A DNA stretch of 64,000 nt from a virus. The translations under genes were made by a program, and so were the position numbers. Where the stretch lies: the IMG/VR virus record IMGVR_UViG_3300050821_003529, positions 1 to 64,000 of that record, one strand, 5' to 3'. A model generated the notes under the pieces. It ran no database searches and was not told the origin of the DNA. It saw nothing but the letters and a program-made list of their open reading frames with translations. Below, in pieces: positions 17,114-30,440 of the stretch (its first letter is position 1; the number at the start of each line of letters is the position of its first letter).

Positions 17114-17142
17114 TTGACAATGTTCCAAGAGTTCGATATTCT
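17114..17142 (+). promoter_or_regulatory. Promoter of the RNase P RNA gene
   Basis: TTGACA (17114-17119), 17 bp, TATTCT (17137-17142), preceded by GC as in the AAAGC promoters. The expected start, seven bases on at 17149, is exactly the first G of the GGAGAGTC that forms helix P1 of the RNA below. Confidence 0.8.
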
Positions 17143-17148
17143 GATTCT

Positions 17149-17446
17149 GGAGAGTCAGATGATCGCAGTCGATTGCAGCGTCAAATCTTCATAAGATTGG
17201 CGGCTGGTCGATTGAGGAAGTTCCGGACTACACGAGCAATCGTATTGTGGAAGCTGCAAGCACGGTAACGTGACGGGTAAAGCTGCCAGCCCTAAGTGAT
17301 ATCCTACAGGCTGGAGATAACTCCATACGAGTAGCAATTCCAAACAGACCTTCTAGCTCAAGTTTTGCTGGTCGGGTAGGAAGCTCAGACGAATGATCAT
17401 CTCCGTTCGCACGAGCGAAGACAGAATCCGGGCTATCGACTCTCCA
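17149..17446 (+). ncRNA. rnpB: RNase P RNA (phage-encoded)
   Basis: About 298 nt with the hallmarks of bacterial RNase P RNA. The 5' and 3' ends pair as P1 (GGAGAGTC / GACTCTCC). CR-I is GAGGAAGTTCCGGAC (17214-17228), CR-V is GACAGAATCCGG (17420-17431), followed by GCTATCGAC as in the E. coli 3' end. ATAACTCCATACGAGTAGCA near 17320 and CAAACAG match the P10-P11 to J11/12 region, and GGGTAGGAAGC...AGACGAATGATCATC near 17372-17400 matches the GGGTAGG...GATGAATGA block. The RNA would remove 5' leaders from the tRNAs downstream. It is shorter than the E. coli RNA (377 nt); the loop that normally carries GGT for CCA binding looks reduced (17351-17369). No RNase P protein gene was seen. Confidence 0.88.
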
Positions 17447-17456
17447 AAGGAATTTT

Positions 17457-17591
17457 ATGAACGAAGACAAAGAGAAACCGGAAAAGGATGAACTTACTGA
17501 TGACGAAATTTGGGATTTAGTTCCCGGCATGGGTCCTTTCATATTTGAGAAAGCACTTCAAGATTCGATTCCTTTTCTGACACCATTTTAA
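17457..17591 (+). CDS. Small acidic protein downstream of RNase P RNA
   Basis: A 44-residue frame (MNEDKEKPEKDELTDDEIWD at the start) with AAAGGA before the ATG. It begins 11 bases after the RNase P RNA ends, so both are probably one transcript. It is far too acidic to be an RNase P protein subunit. Function unknown. Its TAA overlaps the next ATG. Confidence 0.6.
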   Translation: MNEDKEKPEKDELTDDEIWDLVPGMGPFIFEKALQDSIPFLTPF

Positions 17592-17665
17592 TGTTTTGGC
17601 TTATAGCAATATTGTTATCAGTTTTGATTTGGCTTTGTATAGATTCAGTGATAAATATAAAATAG
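17591..17665 (+). CDS. Single-pass membrane micropeptide
   Basis: A 24-residue frame, MFWLIAILLSVLIWLCIDS at the start, almost wholly one transmembrane helix. It is coupled to the upstream gene through TAATG and its stop overlaps the first base pairs of the following tRNA. Function unknown. Confidence 0.45.
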   Translation: MFWLIAILLSVLIWLCIDSVINIK

Positions 17666-17737
17666 ACTATTCGTCCAACGGTAGGACGCTCGTCCGATTA
17701 ACGAGAAATCGGGGTTCGAATCCCTGATGGTCTACCA
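17664..17737 (+). tRNA. tRNA-Ile(GAT), atypical loop
   Basis: Acceptor AGACTAT / ATGGTCT, discriminator A, encoded CCA; T arm GGGGTTCGAATCCC. The anticodon stem CTCGT/ACGAG encloses CCGATTA, so the triplet GAT would be the anticodon, but position 33 is C instead of U and 37 is T. Amino-acid identity is therefore less certain. First tRNA of the array. Confidence 0.7.
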
Positions 17738-19101: not shown

Positions 19102-19186
19102 CGGTGATTGGCGGAACTGGCAGACGCACCGTTCTCAAAAAGCGGCGAAGCAATTCATGTGGGTTCGACTCCCTCATTACCGACCA
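19102..19186 (+). tRNA. tRNA-Leu(CAA)
   Basis: Acceptor CGGTGAT / ATTACCG, discriminator A, encoded CCA, long variable arm. Anticodon loop CTCAAAA in stem CCGTT/AGCGG gives CAA, reading UUG. T arm GGGTTCGACTCCC. Confidence 0.9.
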
Positions 19187-19198
19187 GAAATAAACTAT

Positions 19199-19283
19199 AC
19201 GGCTGTGGTGGAAAGGCAGACACAGTAGGTTTAGACCCTACCGGTTAACAGCCATGGGGGTTCAAATCCCTCTAGCCGTACCA
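19199..19283 (+). tRNA. tRNA-Leu(TAG)
   Basis: Acceptor ACGGCTG / TAGCCGT, discriminator A, encoded CCA. Stem GTAGG/CCTAC encloses TTTAGAC, anticodon TAG, reading CUN. Long variable arm as expected for leucine. Confidence 0.9.
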
Positions 19284-19328
19284 ATTCACAAACATCAACA
19301 TATTGTGGAAGAAATAAGAAACAATCTT

Positions 19329-19412
19329 CGGTCACTGGCGGAATGGCATACGCAGCGGACTTAAACCCCGCCGCTTAACAGCATAGAGGTTCAAATCCTC
19401 TGTGACCGACCA
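19329..19412 (+). tRNA. tRNA-Leu(TAA)
   Basis: Acceptor CGGTCAC / GTGACCG, discriminator A, encoded CCA. Loop CTTAAAC gives anticodon TAA. Long variable arm; T arm GAGGTTCAAATCCTC. Confidence 0.9.
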
Positions 19413-19467
19413 GAGTGGTTGCCAGTCACCACGGTAAACAACTGGCACTTAAGTTAAAAGGTGAATA

Positions 19468-19581
19468 GTGGATAAGAAAATTGAGCAAGAACTGACGTAT
19501 AAAGAGTGGGAAAAGCAGCATAATACTTTAGTCACTTTCTTGAAAAAGAAGTTTGAGTACGTTTTGACACGGAAGAAATAA
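19468..19581 (+). CDS. Small charged helical protein
   Basis: A 37-residue frame with GTG start (19468) behind AAAAGGTG, beginning MDKKIEQELTYKEWEKQHNT and ending in a basic helix. It ends TAATG into the next gene. Function unknown. Confidence 0.5.
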   Translation: MDKKIEQELTYKEWEKQHNTLVTFLKKKFEYVLTRKK

Positions 19582-19781
19582 TGCAGGCACTTTATAATTA
19601 TTTTTCAGAAAGAGAGAAAGCAGGTGTGACTGAATATCGCTTAGTCACAAAGAAACAAGCTAATGGCGATTTTAAGTTTCGGATAGAAACGTATGCTGGC
19701 GACAAGATAATTTTTATTTTGACACGAGTAGGATTAACACCGCTCGATAATAGAGGAATTTTAGGAGCAGATGATTTGTAA
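19581..19781 (+). CDS. Small protein, unknown
   Basis: 66 residues, MQALYNYFSEREKAGVTEYR at the start, mixed alpha/beta. Start is fixed by the TAATG overlap with the preceding small gene. No family recognised. It lies between the leucine tRNAs and the Ig-like gene. Confidence 0.6.
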   Translation: MQALYNYFSEREKAGVTEYRLVTKKQANGDFKFRIETYAGDKIIFILTRVGLTPLDNRGILGADDL

Positions 19782-19803
19782 ATTAGTTCTGAGGGGGACT
19801 TAT

Positions 19804-20076
19804 ATGCCACAAACAGCAACTGCTAGTTTTTCTTTAGTTGTTACACCATCACCGCTAGTTATTGTTACCACATCGTTGCCTAATGGACAAGTTGGACAAG
19901 CTTATTCAGAACAACTTGTAGCTAGTGGTGGTACCGCTCCTTATGTATGGTCGCTTCAAGCAGGAAGTAGTCTTCCAGCTGGTTTAACACTATCATCTAG
20001 TGGATTAATTAGTGGTACTCCTACCGCAGCCGTCACAGACACGGTTGTTATTCAGGTTACAGATTCTGGGGCATAA
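19804..20076 (+). CDS. Ig-like (He_PIG) domain protein
   Basis: 90 residues from ATG 19804, which has GAGGGGG in front; an upstream ATG at 19771 overlaps the previous gene. TSLPNGQVGQAYSEQL, YVWSLQAGSSLPAGLTLSS and GLISGTPT are the classic putative-Ig (He_PIG) repeat. Such domains on phage particles bind carbohydrates weakly and help attachment. Likely a virion surface protein. Confidence 0.8.
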   Translation: MPQTATASFSLVVTPSPLVIVTTSLPNGQVGQAYSEQLVASGGTAPYVWSLQAGSSLPAGLTLSSSGLISGTPTAAVTDTVVIQVTDSGA

Positions 20077-20117
20077 TATGCCGCAGACATCCAGAGCTAC
20101 TCTTTCTATTAAAATAA

Positions 20118-20154
20118 GCGGAAGAAAACGGAGACACTTCCGCTTTTTCTTTTG
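20118..20154 (+). terminator. Rho-independent terminator
   Basis: GCGGAAG (20118-20124) and CTTCCGC (20137-20143) form a hairpin followed by TTTTTCTTTT. It ends the transcript carrying the Ig-like gene. Confidence 0.85.
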
Positions 20155-20170
20155 GTTTAAAAGGATTTTT

Positions 20171-20434
20171 ATGAATTTTAAAACAACGATTCCTGATTGT
20201 GCATTCGAGCACGACATGAGCCACCCCGATGCGGGGGTGCATAGTCGTGGTAAGTCAAACGCTGAAGAGGCTACATTGAGAAAAGGTTCTCTTCCTTCTG
20301 CTAGCGCAGTTATAGAAGCAAAGTGTGATGACGGCGCAGCTGCTAAGAAAGCACATCGGCAGCAACTAGGATTTAATGACATTGGTAGTGACGGAGCACC
20401 CGGCGTCAGTGGCAACGGGTACCGGGGGAACTGA
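20171..20434 (+). CDS. Small protein, unknown
   Basis: 87 residues from ATG 20171, with AAAAGGA upstream; the frame is open further upstream (MPQTSRATLSIKISG from 20078, similar to the start of the Ig-like protein) but crosses the terminator. Polar, glycine-rich C-terminus. It may be the remnant of a duplicated Ig-like gene fused to a new start. Function unknown. Confidence 0.5.
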   Translation: MNFKTTIPDCAFEHDMSHPDAGVHSRGKSNAEEATLRKGSLPSASAVIEAKCDDGAAAKKAHRQQLGFNDIGSDGAPGVSGNGYRGN

Positions 20435-20480
20435 CGTAAGTTATCGATAAATAAAGATTTAAGTTTGTTTAGCTAAACGG

Positions 20481-20512
20481 GCGGGAGCAGCCACTACTGC
20501 TCCCTGCTTTCC
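20481..20512 (+). terminator. Possible terminator hairpin
   Basis: GGGAGCAG (20483-20490) pairs perfectly with CTGCTCCC (20497-20504). The following T-run is short, so it may be a weak terminator or leader hairpin for the HNH-like gene. Confidence 0.5.
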
Positions 20513-20527
20513 TTAGTGGAGGAAAGA

Positions 20528-21451
20528 ATGAAAGAAAGGTTTATTACGGTTTTAGATTTAGCAAAAGAGTTAGGTTTGCCTGCGGCTATTAGGAAATCAG
20601 ATTCTACTAATTTTAGAGAACTCATAGAGCGAGCATTTCCAGGTTTAGTTAGGAAAATTCATTTAGATAAAGTATCTGGAGTACGTGATGGTTTGGTATG
20701 GGCCATTCCCGCATCGGAAAAAGAATGTGTTATAAAGAAATTAGGATACGGCGTAGATTCTTCAAAATTTATTCCATTAGTCGATTTAGCAAAAGAGTTG
20801 AATTTTTCTAAGGCTATTACCAAGAGCGATTGTACTACATTAGTAACGCAAATTAATAGACGATGCCCTAATTTACTTACTAAGGTTAGATTTGTAAGTC
20901 GAGGACGTAGCGATTTCAGGTGGGCGATTCCACTACAAGAAAAAGATTATTTTATAAAGAATTTTTCTTTGCAAGAAAAACAAAGTGTGGGATTCATTTC
21001 AGAAAGAAGCGATGACGAAGCAGCCGTTTTGAATTTTCAACTTAATTCTAAGGTGTCTGAAAGTGTTCAGCGGCACGCTAAGCTTAGAAATGAGTGGTGT
21101 AGGAACTGGAGTCAAAGCCACCCAATTGCTGCTAGTCTTAGAAATCATCATCGTTATATTTTTAGACTTAAAACAAAGTGGTATGTGGATATGCCCTTTT
21201 ATGATGCTTGGAATTATGACAAAGGTGGTTCCTTTATTGAGGGCGAAAATTGTTTGTTAAAAGAAATAGGACCTAAGCCAGGTAAGTTTTATGATCTCCA
21301 CGTTGTGGATAAATCTGTAGGAATAATGCCGGGTAATCTTGTGTGGGTTCCTAGAGATCGACACAAGAGGGAAGAGTTAGTTTTTAAACAAGCTTTGGAA
21401 ATTAAGCAATTACGAGAACGAATTAAATATTTGGAATCAGGAGTTTTGTAA
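20528..21451 (+). CDS. HNH-type homing endonuclease with two repeated DNA-binding modules
   Basis: 307 residues from ATG 20528 (GGAGGAAAGA upstream). Residues 5-70 and 78-140 are tandem repeats: each has a DLAKEL helix, a KSDSTN/KSDCTT turn and ends WAIP. The C-terminal part contains WYVDMPFYDAWNYDKGG and GNLVWVPRDRHKREEL, resembling the C-terminal half of HNH/AP2-type homing proteins. The catalytic core is not textbook, so nuclease activity is inferred. It abuts the collagen-like gene by TAATG. Confidence 0.65.
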   Translation: MKERFITVLDLAKELGLPAAIRKSDSTNFRELIERAFPGLVRKIHLDKVSGVRDGLVWAIPASEKECVIKKLGYGVDSSKFIPLVDLAKELNFSKAITKSDCTTLVTQINRRCPNLLTKVRFVSRGRSDFRWAIPLQEKDYFIKNFSLQEKQSVGFISERSDDEAAVLNFQLNSKVSESVQRHAKLRNEWCRNWSQSHPIAASLRNHHRYIFRLKTKWYVDMPFYDAWNYDKGGSFIEGENCLLKEIGPKPGKFYDLHVVDKSVGIMPGNLVWVPRDRHKREELVFKQALEIKQLRERIKYLESGVL

Positions 21452-21876
21452 TGAGCGTAGATTTAGAAAAAGAAATTGAACAACTTAGAGCTGAATTTAA
21501 TGATTTAAAAAATAAGACTGTTCAACAGTTTTTAGATCACATAACATTACAGCAAAAGCAAATTTCCAGTCGCAAAGGTGATCCTGGTGGGCAAGGACCA
21601 AAAGGCGATCCAGGCATTTCCAATCTGCCGGGTCCACGAGGACCACAAGGCATCCCCGGACCCAAAGGGGATCGTGGTGAGGCAGGTGTCAGTCACACAC
21701 CCGGACCACAAGGTGCCAAGGGAGACACAGGGGAGCGGGGTCCGCAGGGGTCGCAAGGAGCGACCGGAGCGACCGGGGCAACCGGAGTACAGGGTCCAAA
21801 AGGTGATCCTGGTTATTCTCCAAGTATAAGTGAGATCGTCACAGCTGTTATTCAAAAGATAAAAATGAATTTGTAA
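21451..21876 (+). CDS. Collagen-like virion protein with coiled-coil start
   Basis: 141 residues. An N-terminal coiled coil (about 1-45, EKEIEQLRAEFNDLKNKTV) would trimerise the protein; about 25 Gly-x-y triplets (44-125) follow, then a short C-terminal helix. Collagen-like fibres are frequent among phage tail fibres and head decorations. Coupled to the HNH-like gene by TAATG. Tail or head location is unknown. Confidence 0.85.
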   Translation: MSVDLEKEIEQLRAEFNDLKNKTVQQFLDHITLQQKQISSRKGDPGGQGPKGDPGISNLPGPRGPQGIPGPKGDRGEAGVSHTPGPQGAKGDTGERGPQGSQGATGATGATGVQGPKGDPGYSPSISEIVTAVIQKIKMNL

Positions 21877-21886
21877 AGAGGAAGAC

Positions 21887-23500
21887 ATGGCGCAGGGACC
21901 GGGAAGTACAAGACAGAATAACGGTCCTTTCACAGTCGGCGGATTTTATAATCTCGCTCCTTTTACTTTAACAGATGGTCAGGCTTGTTCTCTTCAGTTC
22001 GATATAAATGGTAATTTAAAAGTTACCAGCATCGGTGGTGGCGGGGGAAGCGGTAACGCCGCAGCTGGTCCTACTGGTGCTCCTGTTCCAGCAGACGCTG
22101 ATTATCTAGGCGTGAATATCGGTGGCACTTTGTTTGGTGTCACTGGATTCAATCTGACAGATTCCACTCCAATAGCCGTAGCTATCGTCAATGCTAACGG
22201 TGATCAAATTACCAGTTTCGGTGGCGGCACTCAGTACGCAACGGGTACCGCAGTTGCGACTCCTACAGGAACAGCAGCGTTAGGATGGGATGGAGCTGAT
22301 GTAAGAGTTCTATCAACGGATGCGGCTGGTCAACTTAAAGTTTTGATTGAGAATACTCCTGCTGTGACTGTTTCTGGAAGTGTCAGTGTCACGCAAGGAA
22401 CCTCGCCTTGGGTTGTATCGTTAGTTTCTACAACGATTACCGGAAACGTAAACGTTGTCGGAACAACGACAGATGGTAGCACAACAGAGACACCTTTTCT
22501 AGTAGTTGGCGGCGAGTCTAACGATGCAACTGCTCAGTATCAACCAATTCCGCTTGGAGCCGCTGGTCGCAGTGTAATTATTGAAGGTGTCGCTGGTGGA
22601 ACAGCTGTTCCAATTAGCGGATCGATAAGTTTTTCTGCTCCACAACACGTCATCGTAGACTCCGGAACAGTTAGTGTTACTCAAGGAACGTCTCCTTGGG
22701 TTGTATCACTAAGTTCTACAACTATAACCGGCACAGTCAGCGTAACACAAGGGACAAGTCCTTGGATTGTAGCGGGAGCAAAGACTCCATCAGATACGTT
22801 TGCAAATCCAACGGATGCTGAAGACACATTTGCTTTGCTTGGTGGATGGGATGCAACCAATTCTGTTTGGCGCAGAGTTCAAGTAGACGCCGGAACCGGT
22901 GTACTTAAAGTAGATATAGGTTCAAATGGCACAGTTGCCATTACTGGAACTGTCAGTGTTACTCAAGGTACAAGTCCTTGGGTTGTATCTTTGACATCAA
23001 CAACTATCACAGGAAATGTCGATGTTGTCGGTACAACAACTGACGGTACAACCGCAGAAACGAATTTCTTGGTGATAGGTGGTGAATCAAATGACGCCAC
23101 TCCTCAATATCAGCCCGTACCGTTAGGTGCAGGTGGTCGTTCTGTTATTATTGAAGGATTTACAGGTGGAATAGCAATTCCTATTTCCGGAACAGTCACA
23201 GCGAATCAGGGCACGCCTAATACATTAGTGAACGCTTGGCCAATGGAAATTACGGATGGTGTGAATGGTCCGGTTGCGGTTAAACCGGGAACTATAGCGC
23301 CACTTAATACGGATTCGGCTTTAGTGGTTACTATTTCTCCTAATAGCCAAGACACTCGTGGCTTGACAGAGTTGATTCAAATGTTGATTTTAGAAGTTAG
23401 AGCCATGCGTACAGCCATAGTCCATATGGTTACTGAAAATGGAGATGTTGAAAGTTCTGATTTCGATCCTACATCTCAAGATTTTCAGCCAGTGATTTAA
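21887..23500 (+). CDS. Large beta-repeat virion protein
   Basis: 537 residues. VSVTQGTSPWVVSL recurs four times with GTTTDG blocks, and GGESNDATAQYQPIPLG with a second near-identical block (residues about 200-250 and 400-450). Such beta-solenoid repeats are typical of phage adaptor and fibre proteins. The C-terminus has a helical tail. Role unassigned within the virion. Confidence 0.8.
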   Translation: MAQGPGSTRQNNGPFTVGGFYNLAPFTLTDGQACSLQFDINGNLKVTSIGGGGGSGNAAAGPTGAPVPADADYLGVNIGGTLFGVTGFNLTDSTPIAVAIVNANGDQITSFGGGTQYATGTAVATPTGTAALGWDGADVRVLSTDAAGQLKVLIENTPAVTVSGSVSVTQGTSPWVVSLVSTTITGNVNVVGTTTDGSTTETPFLVVGGESNDATAQYQPIPLGAAGRSVIIEGVAGGTAVPISGSISFSAPQHVIVDSGTVSVTQGTSPWVVSLSSTTITGTVSVTQGTSPWIVAGAKTPSDTFANPTDAEDTFALLGGWDATNSVWRRVQVDAGTGVLKVDIGSNGTVAITGTVSVTQGTSPWVVSLTSTTITGNVDVVGTTTDGTTAETNFLVIGGESNDATPQYQPVPLGAGGRSVIIEGFTGGIAIPISGTVTANQGTPNTLVNAWPMEITDGVNGPVAVKPGTIAPLNTDSALVVTISPNSQDTRGLTELIQMLILEVRAMRTAIVHMVTENGDVESSDFDPTSQDFQPVI

Positions 23501-23508
23501 GAGGATTT

Positions 23509-24216
23509 ATGAATATAGGTGTTCAGCAAGGGGCGACAGGTAAGCAAGTCGGACAGGTTCCGGTAGCTTCTGCGGGTGAGTTTGGCGAAGTTCTTGTTAG
23601 CGATCTTCAAGGTCGTTTTTATGAAGCAACTTATCGTGGTCAGATGTTTAGTTCTGGTATGACCACTACAAGTATTAATGCCGCCACTTTTACAACAGCA
23701 GATGCTAATTCAGCTACATTGGCTACGGCAGCTACCGCAACCCCAATTATAGGAATTTATAATCCATTGATATCGGGTGTTAATGCTGTAATTTTACAAG
23801 CAACTCTTTCAGTTACCTTAACAACCCTGACAACAGCGGTCGGACCCGGTGGTTTGGTTTGGATTGCATACACAGGCAATAATGCAATTACTACAGGTAC
23901 AGCACCTTTTAATAGAAAGACTCTGACTCAGGCTGGTTCGCAATGTAAGGGTCTTGCAGGATTAGCGTTAACAGGATTAGCCTCAATTCAAACGTCGGTT
24001 CTTTGTGCATCCGGTTTGGGTGGTGGTCAGATTTACAACGTTGCTGAAACTGCAACTGCTGCCGGTTTTATGACACAAATGCAATCACAAAATACAGAGA
24101 ATTTCGATGGGAGTTTAATTATATCACCTGGAGGTATTTTAGGCCTATTTGCTACAACAACTCCAGTTGGACATTCTGCAGCTTCTTCTTTGTTGTGGGC
24201 TGAGTTCCCAGTTTAA
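23509..24216 (+). CDS. Virion-type beta protein
   Basis: 235 residues, MNIGVQQGATGKQVGQVPVA at the start. Ala/Thr-rich, no cysteine motifs, predicted beta-sandwich; the profile matches phage decoration or fibre proteins. GAGGA precedes the ATG. It lies in a row of four similar genes. Function unknown. Confidence 0.75.
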   Translation: MNIGVQQGATGKQVGQVPVASAGEFGEVLVSDLQGRFYEATYRGQMFSSGMTTTSINAATFTTADANSATLATAATATPIIGIYNPLISGVNAVILQATLSVTLTTLTTAVGPGGLVWIAYTGNNAITTGTAPFNRKTLTQAGSQCKGLAGLALTGLASIQTSVLCASGLGGGQIYNVAETATAAGFMTQMQSQNTENFDGSLIISPGGILGLFATTTPVGHSAASSLLWAEFPV

Positions 24217-24217
24217 C

Positions 24218-24835
24218 ATGGCTCTTAGACAGTATCTATTTAACAAGTTCCAGTCTGTTGTTCCGTCTCTTGTGAATGGTCAGTCGTGGCCTACTATAAT
24301 TGATACGACTGGAGCTTTAAGTGTTAACACCGAGGGCCGTAAGGCAACGTATCGGTCAGGACTTTCGGGTTTTACACCTCCTGTAGGTGGTATAGTTAAT
24401 GGGCCTTTTTTCTCTCTTCAAGGAAGTCCAGCAAAAGTAGTTAGATTGACGAGAATACGATTTTCGGCGACGGCAGCAACAGGTGCAAGCGCTGATCTTC
24501 AAGTTTTTAGATACAGCAGTTTGAGTGGCGGTACGGGCAATTCGGCGTTTGTTTCATTGGATATAAATAATCCAACACCTTCGGCTACAGCTACTGGGTG
24601 GGCAACGGCTCCAACATCAGCTACACGAGCAGGAACATCACCATTAGCTGCTGATCAGTATGAGATTGTTACTACTTCAGTTTCTGTTCAACCACAGGTA
24701 ATTGAGTGGACGTTTGGAAATTACTTTTCGCAAACTGGAGTTATCCGAGGGCTTAATGATTATATCGGGGTTACTATAAATAATGTAGGAACTACTCCTC
24801 TAGCCAGTGTGTGGTTTGAGTGGACGGAGGAATAA
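24218..24835 (+). CDS. Virion-type protein
   Basis: 205 residues from ATG 24218, two bases after the previous stop; a longer frame from 24149 lies inside the previous gene. It begins MALRQYLFNKFQSVVPSLVN and is beta-rich. Tightly packed in a set of structural-looking genes. Confidence 0.75.
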   Translation: MALRQYLFNKFQSVVPSLVNGQSWPTIIDTTGALSVNTEGRKATYRSGLSGFTPPVGGIVNGPFFSLQGSPAKVVRLTRIRFSATAATGASADLQVFRYSSLSGGTGNSAFVSLDINNPTPSATATGWATAPTSATRAGTSPLAADQYEIVTTSVSVQPQVIEWTFGNYFSQTGVIRGLNDYIGVTINNVGTTPLASVWFEWTEE

Positions 24836-25126
24836 ATGGCCATCGTCGCAACTATAAATTTTTCGGTCAATCTTGTTCCTGATGGCACGTCTACCTCTGT
24901 CACTCTTACGTTGTCAAAAGTGCCGTTAACTGTTTATCTTAGCCCAGGTTTTGAATTTAATCCGGCGTTCAGCGCAAGTTCGGTGACACTTTCTGGGGTC
25001 ACGAATCTGAGATCGTCTGACGGTCAAATTATCACCGGCTCTGTAGCGTCGGGAGTCTTGACCATTAACTGGCCTGTTGCGCCAACAGGATCACAGATCA
25101 CGGTCACGGGAAATTTTTTGTTCTAG
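24836..25126 (+). CDS. Small beta-sandwich virion-type protein
   Basis: 96 residues, MAIVATINFSVNLVPDGTST at the start. Repeating strands with VTLSGVTNLRSSDGQ and ITVTGNFLF at the end suggest an Ig-like fold. It abuts the previous gene. No direct family match. Confidence 0.7.
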   Translation: MAIVATINFSVNLVPDGTSTSVTLTLSKVPLTVYLSPGFEFNPAFSASSVTLSGVTNLRSSDGQIITGSVASGVLTINWPVAPTGSQITVTGNFLF

Positions 25127-25145
25127 AACATAAAAGGAAGAAGAA

Positions 25146-25343
25146 ATGAATATAACAATTGAGCGTTTAATGGCAAAAGTGGGTAATCTTTCTGTCGTGA
25201 ACGATTTGCTAGTCGAAGAAAATGCAGCTTTGAAAGAAATAGCTAAAGTTAAAGAATCTATCAAAGTTGAAATCGCTAAGCTAGAATCAGAAGGGGAATC
25301 CGTAGCCGCAAATGTGTTAGCACGTTTGAAAGCACTTCTCTAG
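25146..25343 (+). CDS. Small coiled-coil protein
   Basis: 65 residues, almost all heptad-like helix (ENAALKEIAKVKESIKVEIA). A GGAAGAAG site precedes the ATG. It may trimerise with a neighbouring fibre protein; function unknown. Confidence 0.65.
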   Translation: MNITIERLMAKVGNLSVVNDLLVEENAALKEIAKVKESIKVEIAKLESEGESVAANVLARLKALL

Positions 25344-25351
25344 GAGATAAA

Positions 25352-25489
25352 ATGCCTCTACACGCATTCATCGCTTTGTTCGTTGCTTTATTTGTCGGTG
25401 GTGTTCTGACTAGTTATGCTGAGTACAAGTTTCAGTATAATTTGTTTGACAAGATTAGAGACATTGTGTTATATTTGAAAAAGATTTAA
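25352..25489 (+). CDS. Small membrane protein
   Basis: A 45-residue frame, MPLHAFIALFVALFVGGVLT at the start (one transmembrane helix), then an aromatic and basic tail. TAGGAGATAAA precedes the ATG. The promoter for the next tRNA lies in its 3' part. Function unknown. Confidence 0.6.
   Translation: MPLHAFIALFVALFVGGVLTSYAEYKFQYNLFDKIRDIVLYLKKI
25446..25474 (+). promoter_or_regulatory. Promoter before tRNA-Thr(AGT)
   Basis: TTGACA (25446-25451), 17 bp, TTATAT (25469-25474), inside the preceding small gene; transcription would start near 25481, just before the tRNA. Confidence 0.55.
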
Positions 25490-25563
25490 GCTGACTTCGT
25501 ATAGTGGAATTACCGCTAGTTAGTACCTAGCAGACCAGTGTTCGATTCACTGAGTTAGCTCCA
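25490..25563 (+). tRNA. tRNA-Thr(AGT)
   Basis: Acceptor GCTGACT / AGTTAGC, discriminator T, encoded CCA. Stem GCTAG/CTAGC encloses TTAGTAC, anticodon AGT. An A34 threonine tRNA is unusual in bacteria and would need inosine or A-reading. The acceptor begins at the stop of the preceding gene. Confidence 0.8.
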
Positions 25564-25604
25564 TAACATTCTTTGAGAAAGTACAGGCTCTCAAAGGAGG
25601 AAAA

Positions 25605-26021
25605 ATGAAAGTGTGCCTGTACTGTGGAATACGAGTTTCAAAAGCAGCAAAGGGTTGTAGAAAGTGTGCCCGTTTAGTTTTACAGAATGACTGGATTCAA
25701 AGATGGCTTTCGGGTGAAGAATCCGGTATTATTCAAAATAAGGGTGCTAATAAAACATCGGCTCACATACGAACTTATCTGATTAAAGTTCGTGGAGAAA
25801 AGTGCGAGCGGTGTGGTTGGAACGAGATTAATCCTTTAACAGGACATTCTCCAGTTGAGTTGGAACACATCGATGGACATTGGGATAACAATAAAATTGA
25901 GAATCTTATTTTGTTGTGTCCGAATTGTCATTCTTTGACTCCTACTTACAGAAGTTTGAATATGGGTAAAGGAAGAAAAATTCGCAGGCTTGGCTCAGAG
26001 GCGACAGCAGCAGTTTTGTAA
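25605..26021 (+). CDS. HNH endonuclease ending inside a tRNA gene
   Basis: 138 residues. N-terminal zinc ribbon (CLYCGIRVS, CRKCARL), then an HNH core: CERCGWNEI, VELEHIDGHWDNNKIENL near 86-103 and LILLCPNCHSLTPTYR. AAAGGAGG precedes the ATG. The last 38 bases lie within tRNA-Thr(TGT) (25984-26068), and the stop codon is formed inside its anticodon arm. A homing-type enzyme that has adopted the tRNA sequence as its 3' end. Confidence 0.85.
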   Translation: MKVCLYCGIRVSKAAKGCRKCARLVLQNDWIQRWLSGEESGIIQNKGANKTSAHIRTYLIKVRGEKCERCGWNEINPLTGHSPVELEHIDGHWDNNKIENLILLCPNCHSLTPTYRSLNMGKGRKIRRLGSEATAAVL

Positions 26022-26068
26022 ACTGCCGGATAAAACCCACGGAAGTTCGAGTCTTCCAGCCTGCTCCA
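25984..26068 (+). tRNA. tRNA-Thr(TGT) with long variable arm
   Basis: Acceptor GCAGGCT / AGCCTGC, discriminator T, encoded CCA; T arm GGAAGTTCGAGTCTTCC. Stem GCAGT/ACTGC encloses TTTGTAA, anticodon TGT. The variable region is about 14 nt and the D stem has three pairs, features of class II tRNAs rather than threonine. Discriminator T is shared with the other two Thr tRNAs here. Confidence 0.75.
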
Positions 26069-26095
26069 AGTAAATCACTGTTCTGAGGGGGATAG

Positions 26096-26509
26096 ATGAT
26101 TGATCTAGCATTTATTGCTATTGGTGTTGCTGGTGTATCGTTAATTTTTTCTTTGTTTCATAAAGTTTCCGGAGTTCCTGGTGCTGCAGGTCCACGTGGT
26201 CCAGTCGGTCCCGCAGGGCTAGCGGGTCATGTAGGTTCAGTAGGTCCAGCAGGTCCGCAAGGTAAATCCGGAGTAGAAGGTCCTACAGGTCCTCAAGGAA
26301 ATAAAGGCGACAAAGGGGACGCAGGATCGAAAGGTTTAGATGGTAAAGCTGGAGCAGACGGTAAAGATGGTATGAAGGGAGACAAGGGTGATCAAGGTCC
26401 TTTCGGTCCAGCTGGTTTGAAAGGCGATCCCGGTAAAGATGGCGCTCCCGGTCGTGATGGAAAAGATGGAGCACAAGGTCCCAAGGGAGATAAAGGAGAT
26501 CACGCTTAA
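26096..26509 (+). CDS. Membrane-anchored or leader-bearing collagen-like protein
   Basis: 137 residues. A hydrophobic N-terminus (about 1-22, LAFIAIGVAGVSLIFSLF) is followed by some 35 Gly-x-y triplets to the C-terminus. GAGGGGG precedes the ATG. Compared with the collagen-like protein at 21451 it lacks the coiled coil; its hydrophobic start could be a membrane anchor or a virion-insertion segment. Exact location unknown. Confidence 0.8.
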   Translation: MIDLAFIAIGVAGVSLIFSLFHKVSGVPGAAGPRGPVGPAGLAGHVGSVGPAGPQGKSGVEGPTGPQGNKGDKGDAGSKGLDGKAGADGKDGMKGDKGDQGPFGPAGLKGDPGKDGAPGRDGKDGAQGPKGDKGDHA

Positions 26510-26515
26510 AATAGC

Positions 26516-26544
26516 TTGACAAACTTGAAGAAGTTTGATAGAAT
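26516..26544 (+). promoter_or_regulatory. tRNA-array promoter A
   Basis: AGC then TTGACA (26516-26521), 17 bp, TAGAAT (26539-26544). The spacer AAACT...AGTTT is an inverted repeat and is closely shared with the promoter at 27690-27718. It would drive the His-Thr-Tyr-Pro tRNA group. Confidence 0.8.
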
Positions 26545-26550
26545 TTCTAT

Positions 26551-26627
26551 GGTGGATATAGTGTAGCGGTGAGGCACTGCTCTCTGTGAAAGAGCCAGGA
26601 CGGGTCCGACTCCCGTTATCCACCCCA
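26551..26627 (+). tRNA. tRNA-His(GTG)
   Basis: GTGGATA / TATCCAC acceptor with an encoded extra 5' G (G-1) opposite discriminator C, the histidine hallmark; encoded CCA. Stem GCTCT/AGAGC encloses CTGTGAA, anticodon GTG. Confidence 0.93.
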
Positions 26628-26629
26628 AT

Positions 26630-26701
26630 GCGGTGAGTGAGGCTCACCATTTGGCTTTCGTAAAGCCTGAATGCACGGTTCGAATCCGTGTCTCCGCTCC
26701 A
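26630..26701 (+). tRNA. tRNA-Thr(CGT) with shortened D arm
   Basis: Acceptor GCGGTGA / TCTCCGC (one mismatch), discriminator T, encoded CCA; T arm CACGGTTCGAATCCGTG. Stem with loop TTCGTAA gives anticodon CGT. The D arm is several bases short and poorly paired, so the molecule is 72 nt. Confidence 0.7.
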
Positions 26702-26703
26702 AT

Positions 26704-26794
26704 GGATGTGATGAACAAACCGGCTAGGTTCTGGTGTCTGTAAAACACTTCGTCGCTTACGACGTTGTAGGTTCAACTCCTACCACATCCACCA
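26704..26794 (+). tRNA. tRNA-Tyr(GTA)
   Basis: Acceptor GGATGTG / CACATCC, discriminator A, encoded CCA. Stem GGTGT/ACACT encloses CTGTAAA, anticodon GTA. Long variable arm (TCGTCGCTTACGACG) as in bacterial tyrosine tRNAs. Confidence 0.93.
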
Positions 26795-26797
26795 TTT

Positions 26798-26885
26798 CGG
26801 AGTGTAGTTAAGTAAATGGAAGCTTGCCAGTTTTGGAAACTGGTGTCGAAAGACCTTGAAGGTTCGAGTCCTTTCACTCCGACCA
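26798..26885 (+). tRNA. tRNA-Pro(TGG) with extra variable-arm hairpin
   Basis: Acceptor CGGAGTG / CACTCCG, discriminator A, encoded CCA. Stem CCAGT/ACTGG encloses TTTGGAA, anticodon TGG. The variable region (TGTCGAAAGACCTT) contains a GTC-GAAA-GAC hairpin, which proline tRNAs normally lack. Confidence 0.85.
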
Positions 26886-26902
26886 AATTTGTGAGGTGAT
26901 TC

Positions 26903-27286
26903 ATGGCGGCAGCAACATCAGTGGCGGTGTTATCTAGAGTTCAAGCTTCAGTAACTAATGGCTTGTCGGTTCAATATGCGTTTTCTTCTAACGAAGCGCA
27001 GAATTTAGATTTGATTCAAATTGCAAGTCCTGGTAGTCAGACAGGTGGCGCTCCTTCCGTTATGATTAACGTAGATTATCTTGGTAAGGTTCATAGTCCA
27101 GCTGTTAATCCAACAGATGGAACCGTTTTGGGGGTTTATTTTACCCCTATTCTTCAAGGATCGACAGCAACTTTATTCGCTTCAGCGTTTGATAATCCCT
27201 TGTTGTTAGATATTATACAGGTTATCAATCCTGGTGGAAATATTTCTTATTGGCTTGATTATCTAGGCGTAGCTCACGGAGCATAA
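26903..27286 (+). CDS. Virion-type beta protein
   Basis: 127 residues, beginning MAAATSVAVLSRVQASVTNG. A duplicated motif is visible: LDLIQIASPGSQ...YLGKVHSPA and LDIIQVINPGGN...YLGVAHGA, each a beta-hairpin pair. GTGAGGTGA precedes the ATG. Looks like a small two-lobed decoration or fibre-tip protein; function not known. Confidence 0.75.
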   Translation: MAAATSVAVLSRVQASVTNGLSVQYAFSSNEAQNLDLIQIASPGSQTGGAPSVMINVDYLGKVHSPAVNPTDGTVLGVYFTPILQGSTATLFASAFDNPLLLDIIQVINPGGNISYWLDYLGVAHGA

Positions 27287-27297
27287 GGAGAAATTAA

Positions 27298-27681
27298 ATG
27301 TCTATTACACAAGTGACTGTAGCAACGCCAGCCAATGAGGTTATCTTTACAGATACAGCCATGGGGAATACAGCCGATGCTATCAAAGCGTCCTCGGCAA
27401 AGGTTTACTGGATTTCAGTTGATAATTCGGCTAACGGTGGCGCAGCATCGTATGTTAAGTTGTATAATTTAGCGGCAGGTTCCGTGGTAGTAGGAACGAC
27501 AGCACCTGATGAAATTTTGTATGTTCCCGGTGGGGCGGTAATTACACAGAACTATAATACTGGTTCGGCTCCAGGTAAAACGTTTGGTACAGCTTTGACA
27601 GCACTTTGTGTTACCACTGGTGGAACAGCGGGTTCGGTTTCCCCGTCATCTGGTGTAATTGTAACTGTCAATTACGTATAA
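27298..27681 (+). CDS. Virion-type protein, unknown
   Basis: 127 residues, MSITQVTVATPANEVIFTDT at the start, with VYWISVDNSANGGAASYVKL near 38-57 and GSVVVGTTAPDEILYVPGGA. This beta-rich pattern is typical of small phage capsid-decoration proteins. AAGGAG precedes the ATG. Confidence 0.75.
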   Translation: MSITQVTVATPANEVIFTDTAMGNTADAIKASSAKVYWISVDNSANGGAASYVKLYNLAAGSVVVGTTAPDEILYVPGGAVITQNYNTGSAPGKTFGTALTALCVTTGGTAGSVSPSSGVIVTVNYV

Positions 27682-27689
27682 AATAAAGC

Positions 27690-27718
27690 TTGACAAACTG
27701 TTAGAAGTTTGATACAAT
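27690..27718 (+). promoter_or_regulatory. tRNA-array promoter B
   Basis: AAAGC then TTGACA (27690-27695), 17 bp, TACAAT (27713-27718). Near-identical to the promoter at 26516-26544, including the AAACT...AGTTTGA spacer. Drives the Ala-Phe tRNAs and perhaps beyond. Confidence 0.85.
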
Positions 27719-27727
27719 GTTTAAATT

Positions 27728-27803
27728 GGGCCTGTAGCTCATTAAGAAGAGCGCTGCTCTTGCACAGCAGAGGCGGTCGGGGCAGAGCCGACTAGGTCCA
27801 CCA
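27728..27803 (+). tRNA. tRNA-Ala(TGC), atypical T loop
   Basis: Acceptor GGGCCTG / TAGGTCC carries the G3-T70 wobble that defines alanine tRNAs. Stem CTGCT/AGCAG encloses CTTGCAC, anticodon TGC; discriminator A, encoded CCA. The T loop is GGCAGAG in stem GTCGG/CCGAC and lacks the usual TTC. Confidence 0.85.
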
Positions 27804-27804
27804 T

Positions 27805-27879
27805 GGCTATGTAGCTCCAACGGTAGAGCGCTTGTCTGAAGAACAAGAGGAGAGGGTCCGACTCCCTCAGTAGCCGCCA
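27805..27879 (+). tRNA. tRNA-Phe(GAA)
   Basis: Acceptor GGCTATG / AGTAGCC (last pair mismatched), discriminator G, encoded CCA. Stem CTTGT/ACAAG encloses CTGAAGA, anticodon GAA. T arm GAGGGTCCGACTCCCTC. Confidence 0.85.
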
Positions 27880-27884
27880 CTTTA

Positions 27885-28080
27885 CATAACATCATGCTGG
27901 CAAGACGCTGAAGCTCTGCAGGGCTAAGCTGGCGTGATGTAGGGCTGTTCTAATCAGACTCGTTCTGTTTAGAAACATAGGCTGGCCACCCGCTCATGAA
28001 AAGGCGTCCAGTTCGAAATGTTTTCGTGAGTGATTACTTTTCATTTGGTTGATAGGTAGCTCCTATCAATCGGTGGGATT
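27885..28080 (+). ncRNA. Possible structured RNA before HNH gene
   Basis: No gene is seen in these 196 bases, but several stems are possible: ACATCA/TGATGT around an AGC...GCT hairpin (27886-27942), GTTCTAA/TTTAGAAAC (27947-27977), CTCATGAAAA/TTTTCGTGAG (27994-28033) and TTGATAGG/CCTATCAA (28050-28071), the last just before the HNH ribosome site. It resembles no RNA family I know and may be remnant tRNA sequence or a leader. Confidence 0.4.
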
Positions 28081-28491
28081 ATGATGCGTTTATGTTTAAG
28101 TTGTGGCGTTGAATTCGAGGCGTATAAACCTAAATTACGGTTTTGTAGTCGTCCTTGTGCCGCTAGATTTAAGAGTTCGCACTCAGTTATGGGCAGTAGA
28201 ACTAAGAAAGATTTATTTTCTTCGAGAAAGAATTGGCAGTCAGCTAGAAGTTCAATAAGAAAACACGCTGCTGCTATTTGGGAACGAAGTGGTAATAAAC
28301 TAAAGTGTTCGAAATGTGGATATTCTAATTACGTTGAGATCGCTCATTTGAAAGCAGTATCTGAGTTTCCTGATGACGCTACGATTGCTCAAATAAATGA
28401 TTTGAATAATTTGGTAGCGTTGTGTCCAAATCATCATTGGGAATTTGATCATAATTTGATTTCTATTGCGGGATCGTCTAGTCTGGCCTAA
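28081..28491 (+). CDS. HNH endonuclease ending inside a tRNA gene
   Basis: 136 residues. N-terminal zinc finger (CLSCGVEFEAY, CSRPCAARF), then KCSKCGYSNYVEIAHLKAVS near 78-98 and LNNLVALCPNHHWEFDHNL near 109-128: the VEIAHLK / CPNHH form of HNH. The last 25 bases and the stop lie within tRNA-Met(CAT) (28467-28545). A probable homing enzyme whose target is near the tRNA. Confidence 0.85.
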   Translation: MMRLCLSCGVEFEAYKPKLRFCSRPCAARFKSSHSVMGSRTKKDLFSSRKNWQSARSSIRKHAAAIWERSGNKLKCSKCGYSNYVEIAHLKAVSEFPDDATIAQINDLNNLVALCPNHHWEFDHNLISIAGSSSLA

Positions 28492-28545
28492 GACACGAGA
28501 TTCATAACCTCGTTATCGTCGGTTCGAATCCGACTCCCGCTACCA
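28467..28545 (+). tRNA. tRNA-Met(CAT)
   Basis: Acceptor TGCGGGA / TCCCGCT with a T1-T72 mismatch, discriminator A, encoded CCA; T arm GTCGGTTCGAATCCGAC. Stem with loop TTCATAA gives anticodon CAT. Elongator Met, initiator, or Ile (with modified C34) cannot be separated; the anticodon stem lacks the three G-C pairs of initiators. Confidence 0.85.
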
Positions 28546-28547
28546 AT

Positions 28548-28622
28548 GCGAGCATGATGTTAATGGTAGCATGTGAGTCTTCCAAACTTAACGTACGGGT
28601 TCGAATCCCGTTGTTCGCTCCA
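28548..28622 (+). tRNA. tRNA-Gly(TCC)
   Basis: Acceptor GCGAGCA / TGTTCGC, discriminator T, encoded CCA. Stem TGAGT/ACTTA encloses CTTCCAA, anticodon TCC. T arm CGGGTTCGAATCCCG. Confidence 0.92.
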
Positions 28623-28719
28623 CTCCCGCAAGGGATGGTGAAAGCCGACCGTGACCAAACAGGCTTGACTTGATGCTTCGCATCTGAAACCGGAATGGAT
28701 CAGAGAATCCTCTCCCAAT
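28623..28719 (+). other. Degenerate tRNA-like spacer
   Basis: A 97-base spacer between two glycine tRNAs. It holds TCCCGCAAGGGA and GATGCTTCGCATC hairpins, and GGGATGG / CTCTCCC ends that could be an acceptor, but it lacks a T loop, a clear anticodon arm and CCA. It may be a decayed class II tRNA. Confidence 0.35.
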
Positions 28720-28793
28720 GCGGCTTTCGTACATTGGCAGTACGAATGCTTGCCAAGCATTAAAGGCGGGTTCGATTCCCGCAAGCCGCTCCA
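28720..28793 (+). tRNA. tRNA-Gly(GCC)
   Basis: Acceptor GCGGCTT / AAGCCGC, discriminator T, encoded CCA. Stem AATGC/GCATT encloses TTGCCAA, anticodon GCC. Confidence 0.93.
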
Positions 28794-28804
28794 GAAGTTT
28801 TAAT

Positions 28805-28881
28805 TGGCCTGTCGTATAATTCGGTAGTACACTCCGCTGTTAACGGAGAGGGTGAGCGTTCGAGTCGCTCTGGGCCAGCCA
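28805..28881 (+). tRNA. tRNA-Asn(GTT), copy 1
   Basis: Acceptor TGGCCTG / TGGGCCA, discriminator G, encoded CCA. Stem CTCCG/CGGAG encloses CTGTTAA, anticodon GTT. Confidence 0.92.
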
Positions 28882-28885
28882 ATTT

Positions 28886-28960
28886 GGTGACGTAGCATAA
28901 TGGTAGTGCGCTGTCCTGTCACGACAGAGTGTGGGGGTTCGATACCCCTCGTCATCGCCA
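28886..28960 (+). tRNA. tRNA-Asp(GTC)
   Basis: Acceptor GGTGACG / CGTCATC, discriminator G, encoded CCA. Stem CTGTC/GACAG encloses CTGTCAC, anticodon GTC. Confidence 0.93.
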
Positions 28961-28962
28961 AT

Positions 28963-29037
28963 GTCCCTGTAGCTCAATGGAAAGAGTACTCCGTTTCTAC
29001 CGGATGGATGGGGGTTCGAGTCCTCTCAGGGATGCCA
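28963..29037 (+). tRNA. tRNA-Arg(TCT)
   Basis: Acceptor GTCCCTG / CAGGGAT, discriminator G, encoded CCA. Loop TTTCTAC gives anticodon TCT, reading AGA/AGG. One mismatch in the anticodon stem. Confidence 0.88.
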
Positions 29038-29039
29038 AT

Positions 29040-29114
29040 GGTCCTATCGTCTAATGGAAAAGGCGCTAGTCTTCGAAACTAGTTATGCGGGTTCGAGTCC
29101 TGCTAGGATCGCCA
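29040..29114 (+). tRNA. tRNA-Arg(TCG)
   Basis: Acceptor GGTCCTA / TAGGATC, discriminator G, encoded CCA. Stem CTAGT/ACTAG encloses CTTCGAA, anticodon TCG, reading CGN by wobble. Confidence 0.92.
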
Positions 29115-29116
29115 AT

Positions 29117-29210
29117 AGTCGGATAGCTCAATGGTAGAGCGGCAGTCTTATAAACTGTATAAGCGCTAGATTGGCGCACGATGTCAGTTCGAATCTGGCT
29201 CCGACTACCA
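29117..29210 (+). tRNA. tRNA-Ile(TAT) with 24-nt variable arm
   Basis: Acceptor AGTCGGA / TCCGACT, discriminator A, encoded CCA. Stem GCAGT/ACTGT encloses CTTATAA, anticodon TAT (AUA codon). The region between anticodon and T arms is about 24 nt and contains two GCGC segments, which is not expected for isoleucine. Confidence 0.85.
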
Positions 29211-29285
29211 CGGTCTATAATTCAACGGCTAGAAGCGCCGACTCTTACTCGGCAAATCTCGGTTCGAATCCGAGTAGACCGACCA
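29211..29285 (+). tRNA. tRNA-Lys(CTT)
   Basis: Acceptor CGGTCTA / TAGACCG, discriminator A, encoded CCA. Stem GCCGA/TCGGC encloses CTCTTAC, anticodon CTT. Confidence 0.92.
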
Positions 29286-29301
29286 GCGAGTCCGACCATG
29301 T

Positions 29302-29377
29302 GCTCCCATCTTCTAGGGGTTTAGGATACTGCTTTCTCAAAGCAGTGACGTGTGTTCGAATCACACTGAGAGTACCA
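29302..29377 (+). tRNA. tRNA-Glu(CTC)
   Basis: Acceptor GCTCCCA / TGAGAGT (one mismatch), discriminator A, encoded CCA. Stem CTGCT/AGCAG encloses TTCTCAA, anticodon CTC. Confidence 0.87.
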
Positions 29378-29379
29378 AT

Positions 29380-29453
29380 GGGGTTATAGTGCAATGGTAG
29401 CACGCTTGCCTTTCAAGTAAGTAGTCCGGGTTCGAGTCCCGGTAGCCCTACCA
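29380..29453 (+). tRNA. tRNA-Glu(TTC)
   Basis: Acceptor GGGGTTA / TAGCCCT, discriminator A, encoded CCA. Stem CTTGC/GTAAG encloses CTTTCAA, anticodon TTC. Confidence 0.92.
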
Positions 29454-29456
29454 TAT

Positions 29457-29532
29457 AGCGGATTAACTCAATGGCTAGAGTGCCACTCCTACAAAGTGGA
29501 AGTTATGGGTCCGAGTCCCTTATCCGCTACCA
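29457..29532 (+). tRNA. tRNA-Val(TAC), C33
   Basis: Acceptor AGCGGAT / ATCCGCT, discriminator A, encoded CCA. Stem CCACT/AGTGG encloses CCTACAA, anticodon TAC; position 33 is C instead of U, as in the isoleucine tRNA at 17664. Confidence 0.88.
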
Positions 29533-29534
29533 AT

Positions 29535-29611
29535 GCACGGAATGCCGAATCGGTCGAGGCGAGCGTCTGCAAAACGCTTCTTAGTGAGTTCGAGTCTCAC
29601 TCCGTGCTCCA
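29535..29611 (+). tRNA. tRNA-Cys(GCA)
   Basis: Acceptor GCACGGA / TCCGTGC, discriminator T as usual for cysteine, encoded CCA. Stem AGCGT/ACGCT encloses CTGCAAA, anticodon GCA. Confidence 0.93.
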
Positions 29612-29644
29612 TTTACGAAGCGTTATACACATTTATGTTCATAT

Positions 29645-29719
29645 AGGTCGGTAAGATAGCGGTAGTCGGCTCGTCTCCAAAACGATGCAGTGTCTGTTCG
29701 ACTCAGACCCGTCCTGCCA
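29645..29719 (+). tRNA. tRNA-Trp(CCA)
   Basis: Acceptor AGGTCGG / CCGTCCT (one mismatch), discriminator G as for tryptophan, encoded CCA. Loop CTCCAAA gives anticodon CCA. UGA is used as stop in this genome, consistent with standard Trp decoding. Confidence 0.9.
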
Positions 29720-29731
29720 ATTTGAGGAACC

Positions 29732-29872
29732 ATGTTTGAAGAAACTGTTAACATTATCACTGAAGAAGTTAAGCGTCAGTTGTTGAATGGTGCAGATCGG
29801 ATTGTCTTGACAGTTGAAAAGTTAGATGACGATAATGCAGTAATTTTCTGTCACCCCGAATATAACGATTAA
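29732..29872 (+). CDS. Small acidic protein
   Basis: A 46-residue frame, MFEETVNIITEEVKRQLLNG at the start, alpha/beta with an acidic middle. TTGAGGAACC precedes the ATG. It lies between tRNA-Trp and the HNH gene; a weak promoter-like sequence lies inside it. Function unknown. Confidence 0.6.
   Translation: MFEETVNIITEEVKRQLLNGADRIVLTVEKLDDDNAVIFCHPEYND
29807..29836 (+). promoter_or_regulatory. Weak promoter before the HNH gene
   Basis: TTGACA (29807-29812), 18 bp, GATAAT (29831-29836), inside the 46-residue gene. It would serve the HNH endonuclease at 29917. Confidence 0.4.
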
Positions 29873-29916
29873 AAGGAAGTCCTAAATAGTCAACGACTTT
29901 AAGGAGTCAAAGGCTT

Positions 29917-30360: not shown

Positions 30361-30440
30361 CGGAATCCGGCAACGTGTCAGTTTGCTAAACTGAAGTCAA
30401 GCGAAAGCTTGTGCAGGTTCAAATCCTGCACTCTCCGCCA
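30351..30440 (+). tRNA. tRNA-Ser(GCT)
   Basis: Acceptor GGAGAGT / ACTCTCC, discriminator G, encoded CCA, long variable arm with CAAGC/GCTTG. Stem TCAGT/ACTGA encloses TTGCTAA, anticodon GCT. Confidence 0.93.

Follow-up and report, generated by a model that had tools for sequence, protein, structure and literature searches.

A phage RNase P RNA without P18 at the start of a tRNA gene block, and its reduced relatives in phage tRNA arrays

The RNA subunit of bacterial RNase P cuts the 5′ leaders off tRNA precursors with the help of the RnpA protein, and it is a textbook example of a cellular ribozyme. The stretch of DNA analysed here, a window of 64,000 nucleotides (positions 1 to 64,000 of the IMG/VR virus record IMGVR_UViG_3300050821_003529), appeared to contain such an RNA next to many tRNA genes, which raises the question of whether a phage carries its own RNase P RNA and, if so, what the RNA would do there.

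The family to which the RNA belongs is clear from covariance searching. The Rfam model of class A RNase P RNA, RF00010, matches the window end to end, at model positions 1-367 of 367, with a score of 101.0 bits, a narrow one bit above the gathering score of 100. The E-value is 4e-31 in a search of 2.6 kb and 1e-29 over the whole window, and the match is the single one for RNase P in the complete virus record of 109,128 bases. The initial annotation, which had proposed such a search, is thus borne out, and so are its structural observations. The core blocks follow each other in a sensible order (GAGGAAGTTCCGGAC at 17214-17228, GGGTAGGAAGC at 17374-17384 and GACAGAATCCGG at 17420-17431), the two ends pair as P1 (GGAGAGTC with GACTCTCC), and P4, on whose presence the annotation had staked its identification, is found with CR-I pairing to CR-V in all eight positions. 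P1, P2 and the pseudoknotted P2/P4 topology are present. The covariance match, backed by the compensatory changes in relatives described below, confirms the window RNA as the RNA subunit of a bacterial RNase P of the class A type, lacking P18 and with a reduced specificity domain (Table 1).

Table 1 Features of the RNase P RNA locus and the adjoining tRNA block, in window coordinates.
Feature	Position	Strand	Basis
Sigma-70-like promoter, TTGACA-17-TATTCT	17114..17142	+	consensus match only; start ~17149
RNase P RNA, P18-less, reduced specificity domain	17147..17451	+	RF00010, 101 bits, E 1e-29
P1, 9 pairs	17148-17156/17438-17446	+	helix covaries across phage RNAs
P2, 7/7 pairs	17158-17164/17395-17401	+	helix covaries across phage RNAs
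P3 hairpin	17165..17213	+	predicted fold, -17.1 kcal/mol
CR-I including P4 5′ strand, GAGGAAGTTCCGGAC; bulged U at 17222	17214..17228	+	8/8 P4 pairs
P4	17219-17227/17427-17434	+	8/8 pairs; bulged U (U69) is 17222
Reduced specificity domain	17229..17334	+	cmscan local end, motif check, hand model
P5 within reduced specificity domain	17228-17231/17331-17334	+	hand model from sequence
P7 within reduced specificity domain	17241-17245/17325-17329	+	hand model from sequence
P8, P9 and one further hairpin, reduced specificity domain	within 17229..17334	+	hand model
P6, GAGC with GCTC of L17	17234-17237/17356-17359	+	read by hand from sequence
P15 (TTCC/GGAA), L15 CGGGT, P16, L17	17338..17382	+	sequence, cmscan alignment
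Junction without P18, then CR-IV AGACGAATGA	17383..17396	+	cmscan, 24 model positions absent
P19-like hairpin, TTCGC/GCGAA	17402..17420	+	sequence
CR-V including P4 3′ strand, GACAGAATCCGGGCTAT	17420..17436	+	sequence, cmscan, pair check
44-codon ORF, AAGGA ribosome-binding site	17457..17591	+	sequence
tRNA-Ile(GAT), first tRNA of block, CCA encoded	17664..17737	+	ARAGORN, Rfam, CCA check
29 further tRNA genes among small ORFs, all CCA-encoding (likely ribozyme substrates)	19102..31129	+	ARAGORN, CCA check

CR-IV and CR-V (GACAGAATCCGGGCTA) are intact in the window RNA, and L15 keeps its CGGGT at 17373-17377, with the GGU that normally pairs with the 3′ CCA of the tRNA, and the RNA keeps, as judged by its sequence, what catalysis and CCA reading need. 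The lost elements lie elsewhere. P18, which is usual though not universal in class A, has no bases at its model positions in the cmscan alignment; the idea that the missing 3′ element might be P15-P17 with the GGU was discarded, as alignment with the E. coli RNA shows P18 lost and the GGU kept. The specificity domain is cut down to 45 nt in place of 104 model positions, and neither of the CR-II/CR-III motifs, ACAGA and GTGAAA, occurs in 17228-17345. Having no recognisable CR-II/CR-III, the RNA may bind the tRNA elbow poorly, and since P18 docks onto the specificity domain, the shrinkage of the one and the loss of the other would go together.

A scan of GTDB shows that P18-less RNase P RNAs occur in many bacterial phyla. 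The loss of P18 is therefore ruled out as a hallmark of phage RNase P, and it does not disqualify the window RNA from class A. The sequence of P4 is more distinctive: 6 of the 16 bases that form its pairs are not those usual in bacteria, yet all eight pairs are kept, three of them by changes on both sides. In E. coli numbering, A67-U359 has become G-C, G68-C358 has become U-G and G74-C353 has become A-U. Among the 77 P18-less GTDB RNAs in which both P4 strands could be read, pair 67-359 is A-U in 71 and G-C in 6, and pair 68-358 is G-C in every one. The latter pair is altered in 7 of 12 phage RNAs, namely to U-G in the window and in the Microbacterium phages Zooman and Big4 and to C-G in loci L047, L048, L050 and L051, although these seven are not independent, one change being shared by Zooman and Big4 and another by L047 and L051. 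By its sequence, then, the window form carries a P4 variant typical of phage RNAs.

The surroundings of the gene are those of a phage. The 109-kb record encodes a terminase large subunit (phrog_38), head-tail adaptor/portal proteins (phrog_332 and phrog_1216) and a weaker match to a major head protein (phrog_1357), and no 16S rRNA was found in it; genes of the same kind also occur in isolated phages, as described below. Among isolates, the Tunturiibacter phage Tunturi_3 is closest in portal and terminase, with 35% and 25% identity, respectively, and its record, when searched, contained no RNase P RNA. Tunturiibacter is an acidobacterium, and the kinship weakly hints at an acidobacterial host for the window phage. 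A profile search of the window record for RnpA (PF00825) was negative, so the RNA must either borrow the host protein or work alone.

Upstream of the RNA, TTGACA at 17114 and TATTCT at 17137-17142 are separated by a 17-nt spacer, and the start predicted about 7 nt past the -10 box coincides with 17149, the first base of P1 as initially annotated. Promoter-like sites are mildly commoner in the window than chance would have it (18 against 11.3 expected from shuffles), and the promoter is therefore weak evidence and just plausible. The RNA had also been described as heading a large tRNA array. It is indeed the first feature of a plus-strand block at 17.7-31.1 kb that holds all 30 tRNA genes of the window, each of which encodes its CCA; the nearest of them, tRNA-Ile, is however about 220 nt downstream, separated from the RNA by a 44-codon ORF that is probably co-transcribed with it, and the dense array lies at 25.5-31.1 kb.

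Several other features were observed in the same record and elsewhere. Just upstream of the RNase P promoter, positions 16489-17017 contain five copies of GGTGACANWAT, with 0.21 expected in the whole window, and an 18-nt inverted repeat is found at 16916-16933/16951-16968; both might be regulator sites or replication iterons. At 25490-25563, ARAGORN predicts a tRNA-Thr with the anticodon AGT, unusual in bacteria, which the Rfam tRNA model does not confirm at its gathering score. In L002 (5179-7573, record 69179-71573), a nicotinamide phosphoribosyltransferase (PF18127/PF04095) adjoins a Nudix-domain protein with an apparent N-terminal nucleotidyltransferase, the two likely salvaging NAD together, as happens in phages that escape defences based on NAD depletion. 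A tyrosine integrase and an SPFH/Band 7 protein (2609-3541 and 1616-2551 of L002) occur in this same phage, which may be temperate, and L003 (19553-19975) encodes a 140-aa C-terminal piece of IMP dehydrogenase/GMP reductase (PF00478) beside DNA-polymerase-like ORFs.

IMG/VR was scanned with a CR-I pattern and a pattern for the P18-less 3′ half, and most of the resulting loci were confirmed by Rfam as RNase P RNA; the prevalence figures are lower bounds set by these exact patterns. In 14 virus contigs (L005, L007, L011, L012, L014, L015, L017, L028, L030, L047, L048, L049, L051 and L052, of which L007 and L011 are near copies) the RNase P RNA lies among many tRNA genes, and a fifteenth locus, L029, is truncated where its stretch ends. 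The larger array-bearing loci hold 10-29 tRNA genes beside the RNase P RNA, compared with a mean of 0.25 and a maximum of 4 per locus in a control set of 80 GTDB loci (up to 8 kb) with P18-less RNase P RNA. The spacing to the neighbouring gene is often 0-10 nt. In L017 one tRNA ends 2 nt before the RNase P RNA and the next starts 2 nt after it, and a tRNA is similarly tight on at least one side in L012, L014, L030, L047, L051 and L052. Unlike most other phage RNase P RNAs, the window RNA is not abutted by tRNAs, and none of the relatives found is close to this exact RNA. Neither 16S rRNA nor RnpA was detected in any of the 20 phage records searched, and contigs G009, G010, G024, G028 and G029 have a terminase match; the IMG/VR contigs as such are predicted viruses, with virion genes checked in some detail for the window record only. 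In L049 the 3′ part of a tmRNA (1-209) shares the phage tRNA array with the RNase P RNA.

The most reduced form is found in L050 (782-939, contig IMGVR_UViG_3300020420_000027), an RNase P RNA of 158 nt scoring 79 bits (E 1.5e-22), which to our knowledge is among the smallest of the bacterial type. P18 is absent, a loop of 8 nt makes up the entire specificity domain, and P4 has an A in place of the bulged U69. The sequence suggests a 5-bp mimic of P6 between the L5 loop and L17, with a second 5-bp alternative. The L050 fragment of the 46-kb contig contains no tRNA gene, and from ORF reading the contig looks to encode a family B DNA polymerase and a clamp loader.

A number of candidates were set aside. 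Short IMG/VR matches, among them L025-L027, L031, L034, L035, L037 and L040, score above 300 bits and have the look of ordinary chromosomal rnpB, and they were not counted. Public 'phage' records with rnpB among apparently bacterial genes are likely host DNA; they include the Salmonella record AGRM01000002.1, the Acinetobacter MD-2021a records, CAKLQF020000022.1 and the 'Microcystis phage' MaAM05 (MW495066.1), where rnpB is near ompA, fliM, fabI, glyS and others. The terminase relatives L019-L024 do not reach the region and have no bearing on its conservation.

Cultured carriers nevertheless exist. The window RNA has no blastn match among isolated phages, but an IMG/VR RNase P RNA used as the query gave a 26-base match in Microbacterium phage A3Wally. 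There Rfam detects an RNase P RNA of 221 nt that lies exactly between a pair of tRNA genes, at 72 bits (E 8.6e-21) and thus short of the gathering score. The same 221-nt RNA, 88-92% identical to that of A3Wally, occupies the same position in Zooman, Big4 and one more phage of Microbacterium foliorum, making four isolates in total, and it is unannotated in all of them. Searches of the whole records find one copy each in A3Wally, Zooman and Big4, at 51-72 bits against the gathering score of 100; the genes have probably been overlooked because these forms fall below the Rfam cut-off and occupy the spaces separating annotated tRNAs. RnpA is not encoded by A3Wally or Zooman. The 171-kb IMG/VR contig G029 has a copy at 97% identity.

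Selection on the fold is evident in two alignments of these relatives. In 67 columns of P1, P2 and P4 from 12 P18-less phage RNAs, cut by hand at fixed offsets from conserved motifs, 95.7% of cells pair compared with 72.6% in shuffles, and 17 of 25 pairs change on both sides compared with 12.7, a value reached in none of 500 shuffles; the signal vanishes when the partners are shifted by 1-3 columns. The second alignment consists of five A3Wally-type RNAs (88-97% identical to that of A3Wally) in 221 ungapped columns. Here 10 of 49 pairs, in P4, P5, P6 and P7, change on both sides, the shuffle mean being 3.6 with none of 500 reaching 10, and covariation is also seen in P6, which has 8 bp in the Microbacterium phages. 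The structure used for the second alignment is that of A3Wally, so the percentage paired is biased towards it, the count of double changes being less exposed. Substitutions in the A3Wally-type RNAs are largely compensatory. With no close relative of the exact window RNA, this selection applies to its relatives and not to its own lineage.

Taken together, the locus is probably a gene for a trans-acting phage ribozyme that relies on RnpA from the host in maturing the tRNAs of the phage. During infection, transcription of this 0.3-kb RNA, which precedes the plus-strand tRNA genes, would start from what is probably a promoter of its own. The RNA would fold its catalytic domain (P1-P4, P15/L15), enlist RnpA from the host and cut the 5′ leaders off the phage's 30 pre-tRNAs, every one of which carries the CCA that L15 reads. 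What we infer from the sequence is that the RNA is transcribed and catalytic, that it works with the RnpA of the host and that its chief substrate is the tRNAs of the phage. That the ribozyme would trim the phage's own tRNAs, as initially proposed, is a good inference, because most phage RNase P RNAs lie inside tRNA arrays and cellular ones do not. It counts against the proposed role that the host RNase P should already manage tRNA 5′ processing. In the array-embedded forms, where the downstream tRNA starts at the point where the ribozyme ends, the RNase P cut of that tRNA would also free the 3′ end of the ribozyme; in the window, whose RNA has no tRNA directly beside it, this would not hold.

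Two other roles for a functional RNA appear unlikely. The RNA might act as a decoy that binds host RnpA, starves the host enzyme and stops host tRNA maturation, its own catalysis being unimportant. RnpA is encoded in no phage record searched, so any phage RNA would compete for it, and the part that has been kept, the catalytic domain, is the one that contacts RnpA. A decoy, however, has no need to preserve the P4 pairs, the bulged U, CR-V and the GGU of L15 through compensatory change; it would harm the phage's own tRNAs as well, and it leaves the association with tRNA arrays unexplained. Just as improbable is a backup or replacement for a host RNase P RNA that suffers degradation or attack in infection, which would give the phage independence from the host RNA pool. 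For situations of this kind phages are already equipped with tRNAs, ligases and tmRNA, and some of the carriers described here also have RNA ligase or tmRNA, but nothing here supports a loss of host rnpB in infection, and the idea is a special case of the ribozyme reading that is hard to separate from it by sequence.

The remaining explanations deny the phage a working gene. The small size, a bit score just over the gathering cut-off and the missing P18 and CR-II/CR-III would suit a captured bacterial rnpB decaying into a pseudogene, but the core helices are all intact, the unusual bases of P4 are compensated and relatives evolve in a strongly pair-preserving way, which makes decay very improbable. 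Host DNA misbinned as virus does occur, as AGRM01000002, CAKLQF020000022 and MW495066 illustrate; with terminase, portal and head genes and 30 tRNAs on the same contig, no 16S, and genes of the same kind in isolated phages, it is scarcely credible for the window. The trans-acting ribozyme therefore remains the preferred reading. More tentatively, and with somewhat less than even confidence, we suggest that phages hold RNase P RNA lineages of their own in tRNA arrays, stripped stepwise to the catalytic domain, perhaps freeing their own 3′ ends, and yielding minimal ribozymes of the bacterial type, as short as 158 nt and rewired in P4, that are specialised for phage tRNAs.

As far as we can tell, the RNA family is a known one, and its phage carrier, the tRNA-array setting and the reduced forms are new. 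We found no report of a phage-encoded RNase P RNA in the open-access papers searched, and priority cannot be claimed. RNase P is not mentioned in the main text of a paper on huge phages (PMC7162821) or in a 2026 review of jumbo phages (PMC13282480), nor are phages mentioned in a paper on finding RNase P RNA genes (PMC2996960). The recurrence of reduced RNase P genes in phage tRNA arrays implies that some phages may control the 5′ maturation of tRNAs besides their supply, and with A3Wally, Zooman and Big4 as cultured carriers, phage tRNA processing, and in part the reason why phages carry tRNAs, becomes testable. T4 is not known to carry an RNase P RNA. The tRNA precursors of T4-type phages are cut by RNase P, for which T4 uses the host enzyme (PMC11143913). 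Theta ribozymes adjoining phage tRNAs have likewise been proposed to process them, but these are cis-acting, HDV-like self-cleavers at tRNA 3′ trailers with an unrelated fold, and unlike RNase P they are not a trans-acting 5′ processing enzyme (PMC10879173).

With the class A RNAs of RF00010 the window RNA shares P1-P4, P6, P15/P16, CR-IV, CR-V and the GGU of L15; it differs in being phage-encoded, in lacking P18 and CR-II/CR-III, in its cut-down specificity domain and in having U-G instead of G-C at P4 pair 68-358. A natural loss of most of the specificity domain is also known from the type T RNase P RNA of Pyrobaculum, which, unlike the phage RNA, is archaeal, resides in a cellular genome and works with archaeal proteins. 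A further parallel comes from the laboratory. Stripped of the specificity domain and P18, the catalytic domain of the E. coli RNA still cleaves, and faster with the C5 protein (PMC5839562); P18 no longer matters once the specificity domain is gone, and a P6-type pairing does (PMC5839562). The loss of P18 alongside a reduced specificity domain makes sense in this light, but full-length E. coli RNA loses most of its activity when P18 is deleted (PMC5839562), and activity of the phage RNA is therefore not to be assumed. The parts removed in the engineered domain are the same as in the phage RNAs, and the L050 RNA, which lacks both the specificity domain and P18 and has a tiny P3 and a possible 5-bp mimic of P6, is close to the construct (PMC5839562). 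The phage RNAs differ from it in being natural minimal versions of a ribozyme that has been trimmed down chiefly in the laboratory, with compensation for changes in a catalytic helix that is otherwise nearly invariant, and the window RNA in keeping a small remnant of the specificity domain.
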